Assembly: GCF_001574435.1 (NCBI RefSeq) | Contig: NZ_LOCN01000003.1 | Location: 62,181-126,180 of the forward strand | Source: Moritella sp. JT01 | Lineage (GTDB): Bacteria; Pseudomonadota; Gammaproteobacteria; Enterobacterales; Moritellaceae | Length of the DNA stretch: 64,000 nucleotides | Reading direction: 5' to 3' | Shown here: in pieces, positions 1 through 53,169 of the stretch | Position numbering within the stretch: the first letter of the stretch is position 1 | How the letters are laid out: each line of letters begins with the position of its first letter | Translations under genes and position numbers: made by a program | Notes under the pieces: model-generated | The model's database searches: none | Seen by the model: only the letters and a program-made list of their open reading frames with translations | Told to the model about the DNA's origin: nothing

Positions 1-753
<753 letters not shown>

Positions 754-767
754 GGAATAGTATTGTT

Positions 768-2051
768 ATGATCCCTTATGGTAAGCAGGATATTAACCAG
801 CAAGACATTGATGCGGTCATTGCCGTATTACAATCCGATTTTCTCACCCAAGGTCCACAAGTCCCTTTGTTTGAACAAGCATTAATCGCGCATACTGGCG
901 CTGACTATGCCGTGGCTTGTAACAGTGCGACATCGGCCTTGCATCTCGCTTGTTTAGCATTAGAACTCGGTGAGGGGGATTGGTTATGGACAACCCCTAT
1001 AACATTCGTCGCCTCGGCTAATTGTGGACTATATTGTGGTGCAAAAGTTGATTTTGTCGATATTGATCCTGCGACTTATAACCTTTGTCCAAAGGCGCTT
1101 GAAAAAAAGTTAATTACTGCAAAAGCACAAAACAAATTACCTAAAGTCGTTATTCCGGTGCACTTGTGTGGTCAATCCTGTGATATGGCCGCTATTCATG
1201 CATTATCATTACAATATGGTTTTAAGATCATTGAAGACGCCGCCCATGCCATTGGCGGGACTTACCAAGGTTCGCCGATCGGTTGTGGCCAATATGCCGA
1301 TATTACTGTGTTTAGCTTTCATCCCGTGAAAATTGTTACCACAGCAGAAGGTGGTGCGGCATTAACGAATCAACGTGCATTAGCCGATAAAATGATGCGG
1401 TTACGCAGCCATGGCATTACCCGTGATAAAACGTTAATGATGCCTATTTCAGGTTTCGACATTGATGAGCAGGGGGATTGGTATTACCAGCAACTGGAAC
1501 TTGGTTTTAATTACCGAATGACAGAGCTGCAAGCCGCGCTAGGCGTGAGCCAAATACAACGTTTGCAGGCGTTTGTGACTAAGCGTCGACGTCTTGCTAA
1601 TCGTTATAATACATTACTAGCTGATTTACCGTTAACGTTACCGACGCAGCTAGAAAAAACGAATTCGGCTTGGCACTTATATGTTGTCGGTCTGCAATTG
1701 GAACCCATGGACCTGTTGCAAAAAAACAGTGCTAAAAAGGACTTACTTAAGACGTCTTCGTCTCAGGCGTTCTTACCTAAAAATAAGGTGTTCAAGCAAT
1801 TACGTGAACTGGGGATTGGCGTTAACTTGCATTATATCCCTGTACATACTCAGCCTTATTATCAGCAAATGGGTTTTGCCTATGGCGATTTTCCTGTGGC
1901 TGAAAACTATTATCAGCAAGCACTCTCGTTACCGTTATTCCATGGAATGACTGATCAGCAGCAAGATGAAGTGGTGGCTGCATTACAGACTGTGTTAGTA
2001 CAGTCTGTATTAGTAAATAGTGTATTACTTATTGATGGCTCAAGGAATTAA
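768..2051 (+). CDS. pseC: UDP-4-amino-4,6-dideoxy-AltNAc aminotransferase
   Basis: PLP-dependent aminotransferase of the DegT/DnrJ/EryC1 family that aminates the PseB product at C4. The N-terminus (MIPYGKQDINQQDIDAV), the EDAAHAIGGTY segment and the presumed PLP lysine in FSFHPVKIVTTAEGG are all present, as is the PseC-type C-terminal GIGVNLHYIPVHTQPYY. At 427 residues it is longer than usual for the family. The excess appears to be a Lys/Ser-rich insert around residues 305-345 (QKNSAKKDLLKTSSSQAF), just before the conserved C-terminal block. The start ATG follows an AAGGA ribosome site. It is the second gene of the pse operon. Confidence 0.95.
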   Translation: MIPYGKQDINQQDIDAVIAVLQSDFLTQGPQVPLFEQALIAHTGADYAVACNSATSALHLACLALELGEGDWLWTTPITFVASANCGLYCGAKVDFVDIDPATYNLCPKALEKKLITAKAQNKLPKVVIPVHLCGQSCDMAAIHALSLQYGFKIIEDAAHAIGGTYQGSPIGCGQYADITVFSFHPVKIVTTAEGGAALTNQRALADKMMRLRSHGITRDKTLMMPISGFDIDEQGDWYYQQLELGFNYRMTELQAALGVSQIQRLQAFVTKRRRLANRYNTLLADLPLTLPTQLEKTNSAWHLYVVGLQLEPMDLLQKNSAKKDLLKTSSSQAFLPKNKVFKQLRELGIGVNLHYIPVHTQPYYQQMGFAYGDFPVAENYYQQALSLPLFHGMTDQQQDEVVAALQTVLVQSVLVNSVLLIDGSRN

Positions 2052-2052
2052 T

Positions 2053-2745
2053 ATGCACATCGCGATAATTCCAGCCCGCGGCGGTAGTAAACGTATTCCG
2101 CGTAAAAACATCAAATTATTTCATGGCAAGCCCATGATTGCTTATTCAATTGAAGCCGCGCAAAAATCAGGTTGTTTTGATAAAATTATTGTATCGACAG
2201 ATGATCAAGAGATTGCCGATATCGCCCGTGAACTTGGTGCTGAAGTGCCTTTTTTACGTCCTGCAGACATCGCGGATGATCATGCGTCGACGATGGATGT
2301 GATGGAACATGCCATTGACTGGTGTCAAAGTCATGGACTGAATGCCGAGTTTGTCTGCTGTATTTACGCCACCGCGCCTTTTATTACCCCTGCGTCATTA
2401 CAACGCGGCTTAACTGAAATGAAAACAAATAAATTCAGTTATGCTTTCACCGCGACAACATTTTCTTTTCCGATCCAGCGTGCTATTCGTCGAACGGGTG
2501 AAATGTTTGATGATCGTAATTTGACTATACGCTCACAAGATTTAGAAGAAGCCTTTCATGATGCGGGACAATTTTATTGGGGTAAACCCGAAGCTTTCGT
2601 TTGTCGTAAATCCGTGTTTAGTGATGATTCATATTTAATTTTATTGCCTCGCACTGTGGTTCAAGACATTGATAGTGAAGAAGACTGGCTGACAGCGGAA
2701 GTGATGTATCAAGTGATGAAATCCACGGGTGAGTGGCAGTTATAA
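2053..2745 (+). CDS. pseF: CMP-pseudaminic acid cytidylyltransferase
   Basis: Activates pseudaminic acid with CTP to give the nucleotide sugar used by flagellin glycosyltransferases. It has the N-terminal nucleotide-binding signature IPARGGSKRIPRKNIK and the later FHDAGQFYWG and IDSEEDW segments of the NeuA/PseF family; 230 residues is normal. I chose the ATG at 2053 because it follows an AAGGA ribosome site at 2042 and begins MHIAIIPARGG like the family; an in-frame ATG at 2020 lies inside the end of pseC. The stop codon overlaps the pseG start by one base (TAATG), suggesting translational coupling. Confidence 0.96.
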   Translation: MHIAIIPARGGSKRIPRKNIKLFHGKPMIAYSIEAAQKSGCFDKIIVSTDDQEIADIARELGAEVPFLRPADIADDHASTMDVMEHAIDWCQSHGLNAEFVCCIYATAPFITPASLQRGLTEMKTNKFSYAFTATTFSFPIQRAIRRTGEMFDDRNLTIRSQDLEEAFHDAGQFYWGKPEAFVCRKSVFSDDSYLILLPRTVVQDIDSEEDWLTAEVMYQVMKSTGEWQL

Positions 2746-3881
2746 TGAAGGTTACTTTTAGAGTCGATGCATCATTAACGATAGGCACTGGACATGTTAT
2801 GCGCTGCCTAACATTAGCGAATGTATTACGGCTGCGTGGACATCAGTGTACATTCGTTTGTGTGCAACATGCAGGCAATATGATCACTGCGATTAAGATG
2901 GCGGGTTTTCAGGTTCATCTGTTAGCTGCGCGGCATGGTCAGTATCAAATTAATGAACAAGAACCAAATAATTATGCGCAATGGCTCGGCTGTTCGCAGC
3001 ATGAAGATGCTAAGCAAACTAAGAATATATTGGCGTTTAATAACCAACCGTCACTTGAGAGTTTGGGGATGAAACCAGATTGGTTAGTGGTTGATAGTTA
3101 CGCGTTAAATCAACAATGGCAGAATCAATTTACTGGGTTTGGCATTAAAATATTTGTTATTGATGATTTAGCCGATCGGTTACATCAATGCGATCTATTA
3201 CTTGATCAAACCTTTGGTCGCGCAGCGCTTGATTATCGACACTTGGTTCCCGTGAAGAGTGAAATACTCGCCGGTGTCGACTATTGCTTATTACGTCCTG
3301 AATTTTTACAGCATAGACGTATCAATAATGACGTTAGCAGGACAGGGCTGCAAGTTAATAATAAATATCAGATATTGATAACACTTGGTGGTATTGATGA
3401 GCATAATGTCACTGAACGTATACTCACTATTTTTAATCAATTATCTTTGCTTAATACGCGCTTTGTTGTCGTGCTTGGGGTAAACAGTCCATGGCAAGCG
3501 CGAATAAAAACATTGGCTGTAAAATTGAACATCGCGGTCACTGTGCATGTCGGTGTTAATAATATGGCGGCATTAATGAGTCAATGTGACTTTGCGATCG
3601 GCGCTGCTGGGTCAACGACTTGGGAGCGCTGTTGTGTCGGTTTACCGTCTGCGTTGCTCGCCATTGCTGATAATCAAGAGTTTGCATTATCGGTGTTAGC
3701 GAATGAAGGCATAGTGGCCAAATTTGATCTGGGTACGTTAGAAGAGGATATTAAGTCCTTTTTCTATGATAAAAATAAAGACGAAATTATTTCAACGTTA
3801 ACTGCTCACTGTAAGCGACTGGTTGATGGTGCCGGGTGTAGGCGGGTTGTCGATAAAATGGAGAGTATGCATGCACTGTAA
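2745..3881 (+). CDS. pseG: UDP-2,4-diacetamido-2,4,6-trideoxy-beta-L-altropyranose hydrolase
   Basis: Removes UDP from the di-N-acetylated altrose derivative before condensation with phosphoenolpyruvate. It has the N-terminal loop FRVDASLTIGTGHVMRCL containing the catalytic His of the family, and the C-terminal GAAGSTTWERCCVGLPS nucleotide-binding segment of GT-B-like folds. The length of 378 residues is slightly above the usual size. The ATG overlaps the pseF stop by one base. The gene's end overlaps the start of pseH by 11 bases, so the whole block is probably translated as a coupled unit. Confidence 0.95.
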   Translation: MKVTFRVDASLTIGTGHVMRCLTLANVLRLRGHQCTFVCVQHAGNMITAIKMAGFQVHLLAARHGQYQINEQEPNNYAQWLGCSQHEDAKQTKNILAFNNQPSLESLGMKPDWLVVDSYALNQQWQNQFTGFGIKIFVIDDLADRLHQCDLLLDQTFGRAALDYRHLVPVKSEILAGVDYCLLRPEFLQHRRINNDVSRTGLQVNNKYQILITLGGIDEHNVTERILTIFNQLSLLNTRFVVVLGVNSPWQARIKTLAVKLNIAVTVHVGVNNMAALMSQCDFAIGAAGSTTWERCCVGLPSALLAIADNQEFALSVLANEGIVAKFDLGTLEEDIKSFFYDKNKDEIISTLTAHCKRLVDGAGCRRVVDKMESMHAL

Positions 3882-4827
3882 CCTTCGGAAAATGCAAGAA
3901 AGTGATTTAGCCTTGGTATTAGAATGGCGTAATCGAGATGAAGTTAGGCACAATATGTATACTAACGCCATTATCAGTATGGAAGCGCATATAGGCTGGT
4001 GGCATAGAGAAAGTGTGAATAGTGCCACGCATTTACTGATTGCAGATGTGGATGGTAAAGCCGCTGGTGTGGTTAACTTTACGCATTATACCGGTGAAGC
4101 TGGCATTGCTTCATGGGCTTTTTACACTGGTGATAGCCGAGTCCGTGGTATTGGCAGTTTAATGGAAGTTGCGGCACTTGAATATGCATTCGAGGTGCTA
4201 AAGGTAAGACGCCTAGAATGTGAAGTACTGGCGTTTAATTATCCTGTCGTTCGATTCCATCGTAAGTTTGGCTTTAAAGTTGAAGGTATTAAGCAACAAG
4301 CTTATCAACGTGATGGGGAGTGCTACGATATATATAGCTTAGCGATGTTGGCTGAACATTGGCGCTTTAACCAGAGTGTAGCAAAAGCAAAGACCGTGAA
4401 TAAAATCCCCAAAATTATCAGTAAAACTGCCTTTATCAGTGATGGGATGGTCGCAAAATTTGCGGACTTGAGTGATGATCATAACCCTATCCATTTTGAG
4501 GATGAAGCGGCTAAAATGCATGGTTTTGATGGCCGTATTTGTCATGGCATGCTAGCGAGTAGTTTATTTTCTGGGTTGTTTGCATCGTCTGACTTTGGCG
4601 CTGGGACTATTTATCTTGCACAAAGTTTAAAATTTACAAATCCCATCAGGGTTAATTCAGAGGTTACTGTCACGGGTAAACTCTTGTCTCAAATCGGCCG
4701 CAAAGTGATATTAGAAACCACTATATCGTCAGGCGAACAGGTGTGTATTCGGGGTGAAGCCGAGATTCTGTTAGCAAATGAAACCGCCACTGAATTAACA
4801 AGTGAAGTAGCCAAGGATATTGTGTGA
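3871..4827 (+). CDS. pseH: PseH N-acetyltransferase fused to a PhaJ/MaoC-type (R)-enoyl-CoA hydratase domain
   Basis: Residues 1-170 are a GNAT acyltransferase of the PseH type (ESDLALVLEWRN, acetyl-CoA loop near SRVRGIGSLMEV, FHRKFGFKVEG), which acylates the 4-amino group of the pseudaminic acid precursor. After a linker rich in Lys and Ala (about 171-184), residues 185-305 form a hot-dog domain closely resembling PhaJ (R)-specific enoyl-CoA hydratases. The hydratase motif SDDHNPIH supplies the expected Asp203 and His208, and GRICHGMLASSLFSGL follows. Ordinary PseH ends after the GNAT domain, at roughly 160-180 residues. The start at 3871 overlaps pseG; the TGA overlaps the GTG start of pseI. 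The fusion is seen directly; that the second domain makes a hydroxyacyl-CoA for the first is inference. Confidence 0.93.
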   Translation: MHCNLRKMQESDLALVLEWRNRDEVRHNMYTNAIISMEAHIGWWHRESVNSATHLLIADVDGKAAGVVNFTHYTGEAGIASWAFYTGDSRVRGIGSLMEVAALEYAFEVLKVRRLECEVLAFNYPVVRFHRKFGFKVEGIKQQAYQRDGECYDIYSLAMLAEHWRFNQSVAKAKTVNKIPKIISKTAFISDGMVAKFADLSDDHNPIHFEDEAAKMHGFDGRICHGMLASSLFSGLFASSDFGAGTIYLAQSLKFTNPIRVNSEVTVTGKLLSQIGRKVILETTISSGEQVCIRGEAEILLANETATELTSEVAKDIV

Positions 4828-5879
4828 GCATTGAAACCGAAATAACAATTGATGGTCGTAAAATTGGCCCTGCACATCGTCCTTATATTATTGCTGAATT
4901 GTCCGCCAATCATAATGGCGACATCAATCGTGCTTTTGCAATAATGGAAGCGGCTAAAGAAGCGGGTGCTGATGCGATAAAATTACAAACTTATACCCAA
5001 GATACGATAACGATGGACTGCGACAGTGATGAGTTCCAAATCAAGGGGGGCTTGTGGCACGGACAAAGTTTATATCAGTTGTATACCAGTGCGCATATGC
5101 CGTGGGAATGGCACCAACCATTATTTGCGAAAGCGAAAGAACTCGATATTACTATTTTTAGTTCGCCTTTTGATTTTACTGCGGTGGATTTATTAGAACA
5201 ACTGGATGCACCAGCGTACAAAATTGCCTCATTCGAGGTTGTTGATTTACCCTTAATTAAACGGGTTGCGCAAACCGGTAAACCGATGATTATTTCAACC
5301 GGCATGGCGGATCAACACGAGATTGAACTCGCGATACAAACAGCTAAAGATAATGGTTGTGATGAGTTGGTGGTATTGCATTGTGTGAGTGGTTACCCAG
5401 CGCCGGCAGCGCAATATAATCTACGTACAATCGCTGATATTAGTCAACGTTTTGACGTGCTAGCAGGGTTATCTGATCATACCATTGATAATGCAACCGC
5501 GGTTGTTTCTGTTGCTTTCGGTGCTTGTGTTATTGAAAAACACGTGACTTTAGATCGTAGTGCGGGCGGTGCGGATGATAGTTTCTCTCTTGAACCGGAT
5601 GAATTAGCGCGGCTTTGTCGTGATACCTATACCGCTTGGCAAGCAATGGGGAACGTAAATTATCAGCGCACACCAGCAGAGCAAGGTAACGTTAAATTTC
5701 GTCGCTCGTTATATGTCGTTAAGGATATTGCCGCTGGTGAGTTACTTACAGCGGATAATGTTCGCAGTATTCGTCCTGGTTTTGGTTTGGAACCAAAGTA
5801 TTATGAGCAAGTATTAGGAAAAAAAGCTAACGTTATAATATCTAAAGGTACGGCGCTGAGTTTCGGACTAATAAGTTAG
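4824..5879 (+). CDS. pseI: pseudaminic acid synthase
   Basis: Condenses the trideoxy-altrose intermediate with phosphoenolpyruvate to form pseudaminic acid. Residues about 15-270 form the NeuB-type barrel (PYIIAELSANHNGD, KLQTYTQDTIT, SSPFDFTAVDLLE, LSDHT, VIEKHVTLDR), and the C-terminus is an antifreeze-like SAF domain (RRSLYVVKDIAAGE). Its 351 residues are typical. Translation starts at a GTG that shares four bases with the pseH stop (GTGA). It is the last gene of the pse operon and is followed by a strong bidirectional hairpin terminator. Confidence 0.96.
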   Translation: MSIETEITIDGRKIGPAHRPYIIAELSANHNGDINRAFAIMEAAKEAGADAIKLQTYTQDTITMDCDSDEFQIKGGLWHGQSLYQLYTSAHMPWEWHQPLFAKAKELDITIFSSPFDFTAVDLLEQLDAPAYKIASFEVVDLPLIKRVAQTGKPMIISTGMADQHEIELAIQTAKDNGCDELVVLHCVSGYPAPAAQYNLRTIADISQRFDVLAGLSDHTIDNATAVVSVAFGACVIEKHVTLDRSAGGADDSFSLEPDELARLCRDTYTAWQAMGNVNYQRTPAEQGNVKFRRSLYVVKDIAAGELLTADNVRSIRPGFGLEPKYYEQVLGKKANVIISKGTALSFGLIS

Positions 5880-5947: not shown

Positions 5948-7033
5948 TTAATCCAATAACGACTCAAAGTATTTGATATGCTCATCAACTGTGCGTTCAG
6001 CAGTGAATAGCTTGGCTAAACGCTGTTTACAAGCCACAGACATATCGCTGACAATCGCTTCGTTGTTATATAAATATTCAATTTTATCTGCAATGGCTAA
6101 TGCATCTTTGACTGGTACAATACAGCCATTAACACCGTCTACTACAACTTCTTTACTACCGCCTGTTACAGTCACAATTGAAGGTACGCCATAACTCATC
6201 GCTTCCATTACCGTTCTTGGTAATCCTTCACCACTGATTGAGGCTTGAACTAAAATATTACACGCAGCCATTAATTCTGGCGCATCGGTACGGTAGCCGG
6301 TAACGTGGATACGATTACCTAATGCAGAGTTTTTTATTGCACTAAGATAAGGTTCTTTATCCATGCCTGAGCCAACCAGTAATAGATGAAAATTGTCTAA
6401 ATGGGCAACTTTATTTACTGCTTCAAGTAATACTGATAAACCTTTAGTTGGTCTAACATTAGCAACCGCAATAGCAACGAAAGCCCCCTCTGGAATACCA
6501 AATTCAGAGAGATCACTAGGTTGGGACTGGTACCAAGCCGGATCATGACCTTTATAAATCGTGACTACTTTATCCTTGTTTTTCCATACTTGCGCTTGAA
6601 TATCTTCGGTTACCGCATTAGATACACAAATGATACCGTCAACGCGAGGGTGTAAGTGGGTTAAGTAAGCACTTGGATCATGGCGATATAACCCGCCTGT
6701 AGTACCTCGATAATTAACCATTTTAACAGGGAAGCCGATACACGCAAACGCGGCGTTTGGAATTGTTTTAGAGTTTAGTGCATAAACAATATCGTAATCG
6801 CCTGTACGTAATTCAGCTCTGATCATTTTAATCGTGTTTAAACAGATTTTTTTGGTCGGGTATTGTTCAATTACCTTGATCCCGAGGTTTTCAAAAATTG
6901 GCGTGTAAGCAGAGTTTGGTCGAGTAAATACCGTTATATCATGACCTTTATTCGCAAGACCTATGGTTATCATTACCTCTGGTCGAATTGCATTTGAAGT
7001 CTTGAGATAATCACCCACAACCAAAATTTTCAT
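5948..7033 (-). CDS. glycosyltransferase family 4 (GT-B fold)
   Basis: A 361-residue retaining glycosyltransferase. The N-terminal half starts MKILVVGDYLKTSNAIRPEV and contains VNYRGTTGG. The C-terminal nucleotide-sugar-binding half has VANVRPTKGLSVLLEAV and the E-x7-E type signature in QASISGEGLPRTVMEAMSYG. No membrane segment is seen, so it is probably a cytosolic or membrane-associated enzyme adding a sugar to a lipid- or protein-linked glycan. It lies between the pse operon and the UDP-uronate genes, so a role in capsule, O-antigen or flagellin glycan assembly is inferred; donor and acceptor cannot be told from sequence. It is transcribed towards pseI. Confidence 0.88.
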   Translation of the reverse strand: MKILVVGDYLKTSNAIRPEVMITIGLANKGHDITVFTRPNSAYTPIFENLGIKVIEQYPTKKICLNTIKMIRAELRTGDYDIVYALNSKTIPNAAFACIGFPVKMVNYRGTTGGLYRHDPSAYLTHLHPRVDGIICVSNAVTEDIQAQVWKNKDKVVTIYKGHDPAWYQSQPSDLSEFGIPEGAFVAIAVANVRPTKGLSVLLEAVNKVAHLDNFHLLLVGSGMDKEPYLSAIKNSALGNRIHVTGYRTDAPELMAACNILVQASISGEGLPRTVMEAMSYGVPSIVTVTGGSKEVVVDGVNGCIVPVKDALAIADKIEYLYNNEAIVSDMSVACKQRLAKLFTAERTVDEHIKYFESLLD

Positions 7034-50409: not shown

Positions 50410-53169
50410 ATGAAAAAACTCAAACATACACTGGTTGCAACCGCGATCATCAGCTTACTTGGTGTCAATGCTGTGCATGCGAAAACACCGGTAGACTTGG
50501 GGGTGGTTAATGAAGAAAAGTTGGCCGAAATGCTGGTTCGCAGGGGATTACTTGATGACTCTGCGTCATTACAGGAAAGATCTGATGCAGTAAAAAGTTA
50601 TTTAGACAATAAGATAAAACATGGATTTAGCGGTGATGCTCAATTTGGGAAGCAAGCCAAACTTCATCAAAGTCGAATTATTAATGTTATCGAAAAACAG
50701 CAGGGTTTGAAAAAATCGAGTGTATTTACGCTGGAAATTACGAATAAGCGCACCGATAAAGTCTTGGCACTTTTGATCGATTTTCCCGACCTACCATGGG
50801 ATGATAATCAGCTTACTGAAGAGCATACTTCGATGCTTTACCCTAGCTATTCTCCAGAACATTATCAGACCCTGTTATTCTCAGATACAGGCTACACTGG
50901 CCCGAAAGGTAATAACTTAATCTCTATGCGTCAATATTACGAGCAAGAATCAGGAGATAGTTACAGTGTTTCGGGTCAAGCTACAGGTTGGTATAGAGCG
51001 GAGAACAATGCCGCTTATTACGGAGGTAACTCTGCGACAACAGACAATGACAAAAATGCCCAAGCGTTAGTGCGCGAGGCGCTGGCACAGCTCGCTAAAG
51101 ATCCGAGTGTGAATCTGGCCGACTATGATATCGAAGATCGTTATGACTTTGACGGTGACGGTAACTTCCGTGAACCCGATGGTGTTATCGATCATCTTAT
51201 GGTCTTTCATGCCTCTGTTGGTGAAGAAGCGGGTGGTGGTGTATTGGGCCCTGATGCGATTTGGTCTCATCGCTTTAACCTTGGTCAGCCATATGTGCTT
51301 GAAGGTACGACGAGTTCTGTACCTGCACAATTTAATGGTAACTATGCAGCGTTTGATTATACGATGCAGCCAATAGACGCCGCAGCAGGGGTTTGTGCGC
51401 ATGAATATGGTCACGATTTAGGCCTGCCTGATGAGTATGATACTCAGTATACCGGCGCTGGAGAACCTGTGTCTTACTGGTCTATCATGTCTTCTGGTAG
51501 CTGGGCTGGTAAAATTGGTGGGACCCAACCGACAGCGTTCAGCTCATGGGCTAAAACCTTTTTGCAAACTGCAATTGGTGGTCGCTGGATCAATGACGAA
51601 CGATTATCTATTGAAGAGCTAAAAGATAAAGAGCTGTTCTTTACCCTGTTCCAAACGACAGATAACGATCGCCCGAATATGGTTCGCATTGACTTACCTG
51701 TGAAGAAAAGCGAAGGGTTAAAACCGTTCGAAGGTTTAGCTCAGTTCCATTCTGAACAGGGTGACGGCCTGAAAAATTCGATGAGCAGAAGCTTAGATAT
51801 TCCGACGGCTGATACAGTTAAGCTGACATTTAAAGCTTGGTATCAAATCGAAAAAGATTATGATTTTGCTCGTGTACTTATTAACGGAAAACCAATCACG
51901 GGTAATATTACGACTCTGGATGATCCGCTTAATACTGGTTTAGCGCCAGCGATTAGTGGTGAATCTGATGGTTGGATCGATGCTGAATTTGATCTGTCGG
52001 CTTACGCAGGACAAACGGTTACGCTTGGTTTTGATTACATCACGGATGGTGGCCTAGCAATGAAAGGACTGTTCCTTGATAACATTGCACTGGTTAGTGA
52101 TGGTGAGCGTACGCTGATTGATGATGCAGAATCAACGTCGACATTCGACCTTAACGGCTTTAAAACCAACACTGGATTCTATGAGTCTAACCATTATTAC
52201 TTGCTACAATGGCGTAGTCATAACGGCGTTGATGAAGGTTTAAAAAATATTAAACGTATGGACCAGCTAATGACCTTTGAGCCTGGACTGGTTATTTGGT
52301 ACGTTGACGATTCATTTAAGGACAACGCGGTAGGCAAACATCCAGGTCAAGGTTGGCTTGGTGTTTTAGATGCAGATCAGAACGCGCTATTATGGGCGGA
52401 CACTGGTCTTGCGGCACAAACTCGTTTTCAAGTTCGTGATGCCGCGTTCTCGTTACATGATCAAACTGAATTTCGTTTGACTGCTAGCGATGGCAATGTA
52501 CTGGAAGATAGTAATCTTGCGGCCAATGGTCATTTTGCTGATAATCAAGATTACAGTTTACCACAAGCGCCAGATTCAGGGCGTATCGTGACTGAATATG
52601 GTCTCGTTATCGATGTACTCAACCAGGCAGATAACAACGAATACGGTGTGCTCAAAGTTTCTTATTCTGAGGCTCCGAATGTTGCACCTCAAGCTATATT
52701 TGACGTTGTTGTTGACGGACTTGAGGTTACAGCTACAAACAGAAGTACTGATAGTGATGGTAAGATTACGAGTTATCTGTGGGATTTTGGTAACGGTCAG
52801 AGCAGTGCTGAAAACTCACCAGTGTGGAAGTACACTGAAAGCGGTAGCTATACGGTAACCCTGACGGTAACTGATAATGATGGCGCAACTGCGACAGTAT
52901 CGGAAACAATTAACGTTGTTGCTCCAAATGTTGAACCTGAAGTGGGTGCGAAATACATTCACTTAGGTCGTCTAGTCACATTATGGTCAACAAGTACTGA
53001 CAGTGACGGTCGTATTGTTGATACCGAATGGCAATTACCGAACGGTAAGACTAAGCGTGGTCGCCTTATTACGGCAATGTTTCCTTCATACGGTCACCAT
53101 GTTGTGACATTGAAGGTAATTGATAATGATGGTGCTGTTGTCAGCAAGGTTATTAACGTTAAAATATAA
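50410..53169 (+). CDS. prtV: M6-family secreted metalloprotease with PKD domains (PrtV-like)
   Basis: A 919-residue zinc protease. In order: signal peptide (to about 24, ending VHA); propeptide (about 25-105); and the M6 immune-inhibitor-A-type catalytic domain, with active site HEYGHDLGLPDEYD at 331-344 and the later WSIMSSGSWAG. A beta-rich region follows (about 440-740), then two PKD-type domains at about 757-838 (DSDGKITSYLWDFGNG) and 840-919 (DSDGRIVDTEWQLPNG). Length and architecture match Vibrio cholerae PrtV. Likely extracellular nutrient protease or toxin. AAGGAAA precedes the ATG; a strong terminator follows. Confidence 0.92.
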   Translation: MKKLKHTLVATAIISLLGVNAVHAKTPVDLGVVNEEKLAEMLVRRGLLDDSASLQERSDAVKSYLDNKIKHGFSGDAQFGKQAKLHQSRIINVIEKQQGLKKSSVFTLEITNKRTDKVLALLIDFPDLPWDDNQLTEEHTSMLYPSYSPEHYQTLLFSDTGYTGPKGNNLISMRQYYEQESGDSYSVSGQATGWYRAENNAAYYGGNSATTDNDKNAQALVREALAQLAKDPSVNLADYDIEDRYDFDGDGNFREPDGVIDHLMVFHASVGEEAGGGVLGPDAIWSHRFNLGQPYVLEGTTSSVPAQFNGNYAAFDYTMQPIDAAAGVCAHEYGHDLGLPDEYDTQYTGAGEPVSYWSIMSSGSWAGKIGGTQPTAFSSWAKTFLQTAIGGRWINDERLSIEELKDKELFFTLFQTTDNDRPNMVRIDLPVKKSEGLKPFEGLAQFHSEQGDGLKNSMSRSLDIPTADTVKLTFKAWYQIEKDYDFARVLINGKPITGNITTLDDPLNTGLAPAISGESDGWIDAEFDLSAYAGQTVTLGFDYITDGGLAMKGLFLDNIALVSDGERTLIDDAESTSTFDLNGFKTNTGFYESNHYYLLQWRSHNGVDEGLKNIKRMDQLMTFEPGLVIWYVDDSFKDNAVGKHPGQGWLGVLDADQNALLWADTGLAAQTRFQVRDAAFSLHDQTEFRLTASDGNVLEDSNLAANGHFADNQDYSLPQAPDSGRIVTEYGLVIDVLNQADNNEYGVLKVSYSEAPNVAPQAIFDVVVDGLEVTATNRSTDSDGKITSYLWDFGNGQSSAENSPVWKYTESGSYTVTLTVTDNDGATATVSETINVVAPNVEPEVGAKYIHLGRLVTLWSTSTDSDGRIVDTEWQLPNGKTKRGRLITAMFPSYGHHVVTLKVIDNDGAVVSKVINVKI

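Follow-up and report, generated by a model that had tools for sequence, protein, structure and literature searches.

A PseH-like acyltransferase joined to a PhaJ-like hydratase in a Moritella pseudaminic acid operon: a candidate self-supplying N-acyltransferase

Why would a sugar N-acyltransferase carry an enoyl-coenzyme A (CoA) hydratase on the same polypeptide? The question is raised by a gene in a 64,000-nucleotide stretch of the genome of Moritella sp. JT01 (contig NZ_LOCN01000003.1, positions 62,181 to 126,180; hereafter the window), in which a GNAT domain of the PseH type is followed by a MaoC-type hot-dog domain that resembles the (R)-specific enoyl-CoA hydratase PhaJ. The gene lies in an operon of the order pseB-C-F-G-[H-MaoC]-I, which holds the complete pathway to pseudaminic acid (Pse). 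From its sequence, we propose with a probability of roughly 0.6 that the fusion is a two-domain, self-supplying N-acyltransferase of Pse synthesis, whose product would be Pse5Ac7(R3Hb), the form bearing an (R)-3-hydroxybutyryl group.

Two domains in one frame, in two genera

The gene runs on the forward strand from an ATG at 3871 to a TGA at 4827 as a single frame of 318 residues without an internal stop; the first frame of the opposite strand over the same positions is stop-rich. A preliminary description of this DNA had already read one uninterrupted GNAT plus hot-dog frame here, and its domain assignments are borne out by family searches. The PseH model TIGR03585 matches the protein with 124.8 bits (E 3e-36; cut-off 93.1), which places it in the PseH family, and the MaoC model PF01575 matches residues 187-273 with 66 bits (E 3e-18; cut-off 27). 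Searched as a whole protein against solved structures, the fusion finds the (R)-specific enoyl-CoA hydratases 5cpg (E 2e-16) and 1iq6 (E 7e-16) at the top, both matches running through its second domain, and the PseH structure 4xpk ranks fifth of the 28 solved sequences that pass E 0.001. The hot-dog domain matches the PhaJ structure 1iq6 at E 1.3e-16, and 4xpk is matched by residues 1-177 alone at E 8e-10. We note that the border of the GNAT domain at residue 168 is our own choice.

A frameshift or misassembly was considered and is rejected, because the same fusion and the same gene order recur in the independently sequenced genome of Vibrio sp. CK2-1 (locus L055). There, a 304-residue fusion lies between pseG and pseI and is 51% identical to that of Moritella across both domains, with a linker that is 4 residues shorter. 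Between the two operons, identity amounts to 48% for the MaoC domain, 53% for the GNAT domain, 78% for PseI and 34% for PseG.

How widely the fusion occurs, a point raised in the preliminary description, has now been surveyed, and two genomes were found to hold it. Matches spanning both domains were found in 1 of 11 genomes of the genus, 2 of 394 of the order, 1 of 369 of the class and 2 of 398 of the phylum, as well as in 1 of 227 genomes in the genus of the Vibrio; these sets overlap, the spanning matches always come from the same two genomes, and in the larger whole-genome searches scoring covered at most 5 to 9 initial candidates from each genome. No third fusion was found across the genome, plasmid and contig searches. 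The 119 plasmid records that matched each cover less than 80% of the fusion query, a scan of genome contigs with two short patterns returned the Vibrio fusion alone (a weak negative beyond Vibrio), and scans of viral contigs yielded no relative. To our knowledge, this is the first PseH with such an architecture.

In the GNAT tree (39 rows), the two fusions are sisters with support 100/99, surrounded with weaker support (85/79 and 90/90) by pse loci of Vibrio, of the genus labelled g35 and of Sinorhizobium. They are likewise sisters in the MaoC tree (23 rows; 100/100), in which 12 of 20 inner branches are open. The simplest reading is that the domains were joined once, with transfer or loss thereafter.

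Residues of the hydratase and transferase halves

Residue mapping places D203, H208 and S234 of the fusion at Asp31, His36 and Ser62 of PhaJ, the last of which we take to be an active-site residue. The Asp/His dyad occurs in all 23 hot-dog rows and Ser62 in 19 of them, and all three residues are intact in both fusions at a domain identity of 48%. Published work is cited here by PubMed Central number from excerpts of the papers, and what is said of it extends to those excerpts. The two hydratase residues named in the preliminary description, Asp203 and His208, thus align with the Asp31-His36 dyad of Aeromonas caviae PhaJ (PMC4823750), and because this dyad and Ser62 are kept, the hydratase half looks active.

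The same source gives Leu65 and Val130 as the chain-length positions of PhaJ (PMC4823750). Position 65 is F237 in the Moritella fusion and Phe in both fusions, a residue found there in 4 of 23 rows including these two, while position 130 is I299 in Moritella and Val in Vibrio. A Phe at position 65 may narrow the pocket and favour a C4 or other short acyl substrate. With the fusion as query at E 0.001, the genome yields only one other MaoC-like match, at L003:1420-1908. This gene adjoins one that we named, by reading, as ammonia-lyase-like.

The GNAT half, for its part, resembles the usual PseH of its type. In Helicobacter pylori PseH, Leu125-Glu126 contact the acetyl group, and Tyr138, as the general acid, and Ser78 are proposed to be catalytic (PMC4363471). 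The fusion has Cys117-Glu118 at the contact positions, where the 39 PseH rows hold Cys-Glu in 22 cases, Gly-Gln in 7 and other pairs in 10. Tyr138 and Ser78 are not kept, being replaced by His130 and Asn69; with His in 33 of 39 rows at the former column and Ser in 13 of 39 at the latter, neither residue is diagnostic of the family. Five residues (C3, E47, V49, E116 and Y124) are common to both fusions and absent from the 37 other GNAT rows, and E116 adjoins the acetyl-contact pair. Across the mapped pocket residues of the 39 rows, neither main contact type goes with an acyl group that is known.

The fusion therefore shares with PseH its family score, its place in the pathway and its operon, but the H. 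pylori and Campylobacter jejuni enzymes use acetyl-CoA (PMC4964394, PMC4363471), and the solved PseH chains, of 186 and 163 residues, lack a second enzyme domain where the fusion adds a hydratase. With PhaJ (1iq6, 5cpg) it shares the domain family, the dyad and Ser62. It differs from PhaJ in being joined to a sugar N-acyltransferase, in having Phe for Leu65 and in residing in a genome without a PhaC_N-type polyhydroxyalkanoate (PHA) synthase, so the role of PhaJ as feeder of such a synthase is not encountered here.

Which acyl group, and from where

We propose the following route. The C-terminal domain would hydrate crotonyl-CoA, presumably supplied by beta-oxidation, to (R)-3-hydroxybutyryl-CoA, with which the N-terminal domain would acylate the 4-amine of UDP-4-amino-4,6-dideoxy-beta-L-AltNAc. 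PseG, PseI and PseF would then lead to CMP-Pse5Ac7(R3Hb), predicted to be 44.03 Da (C2H4O) above the di-N-acetyl form, and the sugar could be destined for a surface polysaccharide, for flagellin in a Maf-dependent manner, or for both. As an alternative acyl source, (R)-3-hydroxybutyryl on acyl carrier protein (ACP) from fatty acid synthesis may serve.

Pse5Ac7(R3Hb) itself is an established sugar (PMC6586298, PMC9676051, PMC3628348, PMC9037385). In Acinetobacter, replacement of psaD/psaE by psaG/psaH goes with Pse5Ac7R, where R is given as acetyl or 3-hydroxybutanoyl in one paper (PMC6586298) and as 3-hydroxybutanoyl in another (PMC9676051). The acyl donor that is available may therefore count for as much as the transferase itself. 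The psb genes of Shigella boydii 7 go with Pse5Ac7(R3Hb) (PMC3628348), and the K-antigen of Sinorhizobium fredii HH103 carries a 7-(3-hydroxybutyramido) group (PMC9037385). The nearest plasmid-borne relatives of the GNAT domain are Sinorhizobium pse loci, that of Rm41 included, at 43-45% identity. Rhizobia make polyhydroxybutyrate (PHB) and would thus have (R)-3-hydroxybutyryl-CoA. For the two fusion genomes the supply may be different: the PhaC_N domain (PF07167) of PHA synthases was found in none of 12 genomes, both fusion genomes among them, in a search that did not extend to synthases without this domain and in which 1 of 14 controls was positive (Caulobacter). With no PhaC_N-type synthase and no obvious PHB-linked pool, a private hydratase supply makes sense.

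Among the known systems closest to the fusion, the gene pairs Psb4/Psb5 (S. boydii 7) and PsaG/PsaH (Acinetobacter baumannii) share the proposed product and the pathway step, but are described as a nucleotidase and an acyltransferase, with no hydratase mentioned in the excerpts; we compare them by description only (PMC3628348, PMC6586298). An adjacent GNAT and acyl dehydratase are described for the pse island of the Aeromonas media flagellar region (subgroup IIIC), where, by that description, the pair is unfused; the excerpts assign it no function (PMC7874193). A joined pair of another kind is found in the PRK08190-type enoyl-CoA hydratase/phosphate acetyltransferases (NF006045), in which a MaoC hydratase is linked to an acyl-CoA-using transferase; the partner there is a phosphotransacylase as opposed to a sugar N-acyltransferase, and the NF006045 model reaches residues 194-307 of the fusion with 60 bits, under its cut-off of 282. 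The anthrose operon is a further precedent for a hydratase alongside an acyltransferase. Of the open-access texts searched, none combines anthrose with an enoyl-CoA hydratase and an acyltransferase, and none combines 'pseudaminic' with 'MaoC'. We also note, on a plasmid of Ponticoccus alexandrii (L101:2625-6558), a PseH-like GNAT in a set with ACP, SDR, AMP-binding and acyl-protein synthetase genes, an arrangement like that of the fatty-acid genes described for group II flagellar islands in Aeromonas (PMC7874193).

Several observations weigh against a hydroxybutyryl product. The Cys-Glu pair of the fusions is the common type, so that there is no fusion-specific change at the acetyl contact, and a hydroxybutyryl preference of the GNAT domain without a sequence signal is the weakest link in the proposal. 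The wider GNAT group that contains the fusions (14 rows, support 90/90) also takes in L029 and L030, two loci read as putative Aeromonas from PhaJ copies nearly equal to that of A. caviae, and A. caviae flagellin bears Pse5Ac7Ac (PMC4065374), which may or may not be made with this type of PseH. In Sinorhizobium meliloti Rm41, hydroxybutyryl sits on N5 and not on N7 (PMC9037385), and the three S. fredii records among the matches listed, HH103 not included, match the GNAT domain at 26-27% only. In A. baumannii, strains with gene sets assigned to Pse5Ac7(R3Hb) have a published structure without the sugar (PMC3726653), which means that predicting acyl groups from genes can fail. In Acinetobacter the exchange of the acyltransferase includes PseG, a protein that is just 34% identical between the two fusion operons. 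Finally, among 37 pse loci (defined by a GNAT match at 1e-8 and at least one further pse gene, with flanks of about 1.5 to 9 kb, shorter at contig ends), a MaoC match at E 1e-5 occurs in the two fusions only; pseH thus does not usually have a hydratase beside it. The preliminary description had the second domain make (R)-3-hydroxybutyryl-CoA for the first. Of that claim, the product agrees with a known sugar and the in-cis supply with the missing PhaC_N synthase, while the transferase preference finds no counterpart in any residue tested.

In an unlikely alternative, the enzyme is an ordinary acetyl-CoA-dependent PseH and the hydratase has nothing to do with the acyl group, being a metabolic side activity, a dimerisation module or a chance fusion. 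The acetyl-contact residues are indeed those of single-domain PseH relatives, and other fusions occur in pse clusters: PseG with a GNAT in Rhizobium tumorigenes and Escherichia coli O165, with PseI in addition in E. coli O136. The E. coli cases (L086:5459-8038 for O136 and L089:5458-6996 for O165), in which the GNAT is divergent, rest on annotation and weak GNAT matches; they fail the 1e-8 limit and hence stand outside the GNAT tree. Against this, the hydratase residues are retained in both fusions at about half identity, and the domain belongs to a family of CoA-thioester hydratases whose product class coincides with a known N-acyl group of Pse.

It is quite unlikely, in our view, that the two domains together install a different acyl group, whether crotonyl as such, 3-hydroxypropionyl, a hydroxyacyl with a branched chain or a 3-hydroxyacyl of greater length, with ACP perhaps taking the place of CoA. 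Chain length is not readable from the sequence, in which both fusions have Phe for Leu65 and either Ile or Val for Val130, and the literature mentions glyceroyl, lactyl and 4-hydroxybutyryl as further substituents of Pse (PMC9912281). Against this, a bulkier residue at position 65 would suit short acyls better, and where N7 bears something other than acetyl in the Acinetobacter, Shigella and Sinorhizobium papers, it is 3-hydroxybutyryl. A last possibility is that two joined enzymes work independently, the hydratase running in reverse or feeding general metabolism with the Pse product unchanged. PhaJ reactions are reversible (PMC4823750) and, with one other MaoC-like match in the genome, the fusion could be its main PhaJ-type enzyme, but the position of the gene within an overlapping pse operon and the recurrence of the paired domains and operon order in a second genus make this a very improbable account.

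The self-supplying enzyme can be extended to a fuller picture: a bacterium without PHB metabolism that has its own source of (R)-3-hydroxybutyryl-CoA within the sugar acyltransferase, channels the intermediate from one fused active site to the other and places hydroxybutyryl-Pse on flagellin via Maf. We regard this picture, taken as a whole, as doubtful.

The operon and the destination of the sugar

The pse genes of the window are listed in Table 1. The 3' end of pseG overlaps the start of the fusion by 11 bases, and the GTG start of pseI overlaps its stop by 4 bases. The 239-residue piece of PseB (34-753) scores 353.9 bits against TIGR03589, under the cut-off of 407.75, because the gene is cut by the window edge. 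The pseF start at ATG 2053 is taken from the translation, and scoring ran from 2050. Among 11 genomes of the genus, that of the window is alone in having a PseH that clears the cut-off; the runner-up scores 72.5 bits. This distribution suggests acquisition of the operon.

Table 1. Features of the pse operon and its neighbour in the window, with positions counted from the first letter of the window
Feature	Positions	Strand	Remarks
pseB, 3' part	1..753	+	gene starts upstream of window; whole frame L082:18933-19934
pseC, aminotransferase	768..2051	+	TIGR03588 551 bits, cut-off 423.5
pseF, CMP-Pse synthetase	2053..2745	+	TIGR03584 318.6 bits, cut-off 205.7
pseG, UDP-sugar hydrolase	2733..3881	+	TIGR03590 293.2 bits, cut-off 153.55
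PseH-type GNAT N-acyltransferase domain	3871..4374	+	residues 1-168; TIGR03585 match residues 4-157
Interdomain linker	4375..4401	+	residues 169-177, between domain matches
PhaJ-like MaoC hot-dog domain	4402..4785	+	residues 178-305; D203/H208 dyad, S234, F237, I299
pseI, pseudaminic acid synthase	4824..5879	+	TIGR03586 521.8 bits, cut-off 340.25
Glycosyltransferase (PF00534/PF13439), adjoining cluster	5948..7033	-	PF00534 115 bits

Upstream of the operon lie genes for a polysaccharide pyruvyl transferase, a Wzy_C protein, glycosyltransferases and an initiating sugar transferase, together with a large Polysacc_synt_2 dehydratase and a second Wzy_C protein, so that the pse cluster ends a surface-polysaccharide locus. 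In Vibrio sp. CK2-1, the genes ahead of pseB encode an ABC-2 membrane protein and an ABC ATPase. These surroundings point to lipopolysaccharide or capsule as the destination of the sugar.

The preliminary description had placed the sugar on flagellin, a claim that we find half-supported. The pseI of the window is the sole NeuB-family match in the genome, and a 703-residue Maf (PF20157 175 bits, PF01973 111 bits) is encoded on another contig (L090:9511-11622, within G000:C1:190000-209999), beside three flagellin-like frames (L090:3373-6753) and behind flgK-, flgL-, fliD- and fliS-like frames, all of these flagellar names being read from translations. A Maf near flagellin genes and a nonulosonic acid pathway are thus both present, and in A. 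caviae the glycosylation of flagellin requires Maf1, a putative pseudaminyltransferase (PMC4065374). Besides the polysaccharide locus, two findings weigh against flagellin: all 11 genomes of the genus contain a Maf, as against 1 of 11 with a PseH above cut-off, and the Vibrio sp. CK2-1 genome gave no Maf match. The results of our literature search, mostly without full texts, contain no report of hydroxybutyryl-Pse on flagellin.

Three neighbouring features are recorded as side observations. The glycosyltransferase that closes Table 1 and another at L082:17627-18739 flank the operon on opposite strands, have Pfam domains in common and resemble paralogues by eye, with motif runs in common. Downstream of the fused operon of Vibrio sp. 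CK2-1 (L055:8892-13121), genes for an AMP-binding enzyme, an SDR, an Antibiotic_NAT protein (PF02522) and a DUF4910 protein perhaps constitute a second route of sugar acylation. Farther along the window, positions 50410-53169 (+) encode an Immune inhibitor A type M6 metallopeptidase with PKD domains.

In sum, the domain architecture is new, while the pathway step and the chemistry are already known; the logic of supply is new to us, and the interpretation of the enzyme is plausible. The source of the (R)-3-hydroxybutyryl group on surface sugars is not addressed in the excerpted gene-cluster papers, and the fused hydratase, if our reading is true, would name the acyl supplier. It would then aid in predicting the acyl type of Pse from sequence, offer a compact catalyst for making acyl-modified Pse and provide a Rosetta-stone reading for unfused GNAT and acyl-dehydratase pairs such as that of Aeromonas (PMC7874193). 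Both bacteria that carry the fusion may, in that case, decorate pseudaminic acid in a manner unlike the textbook form.

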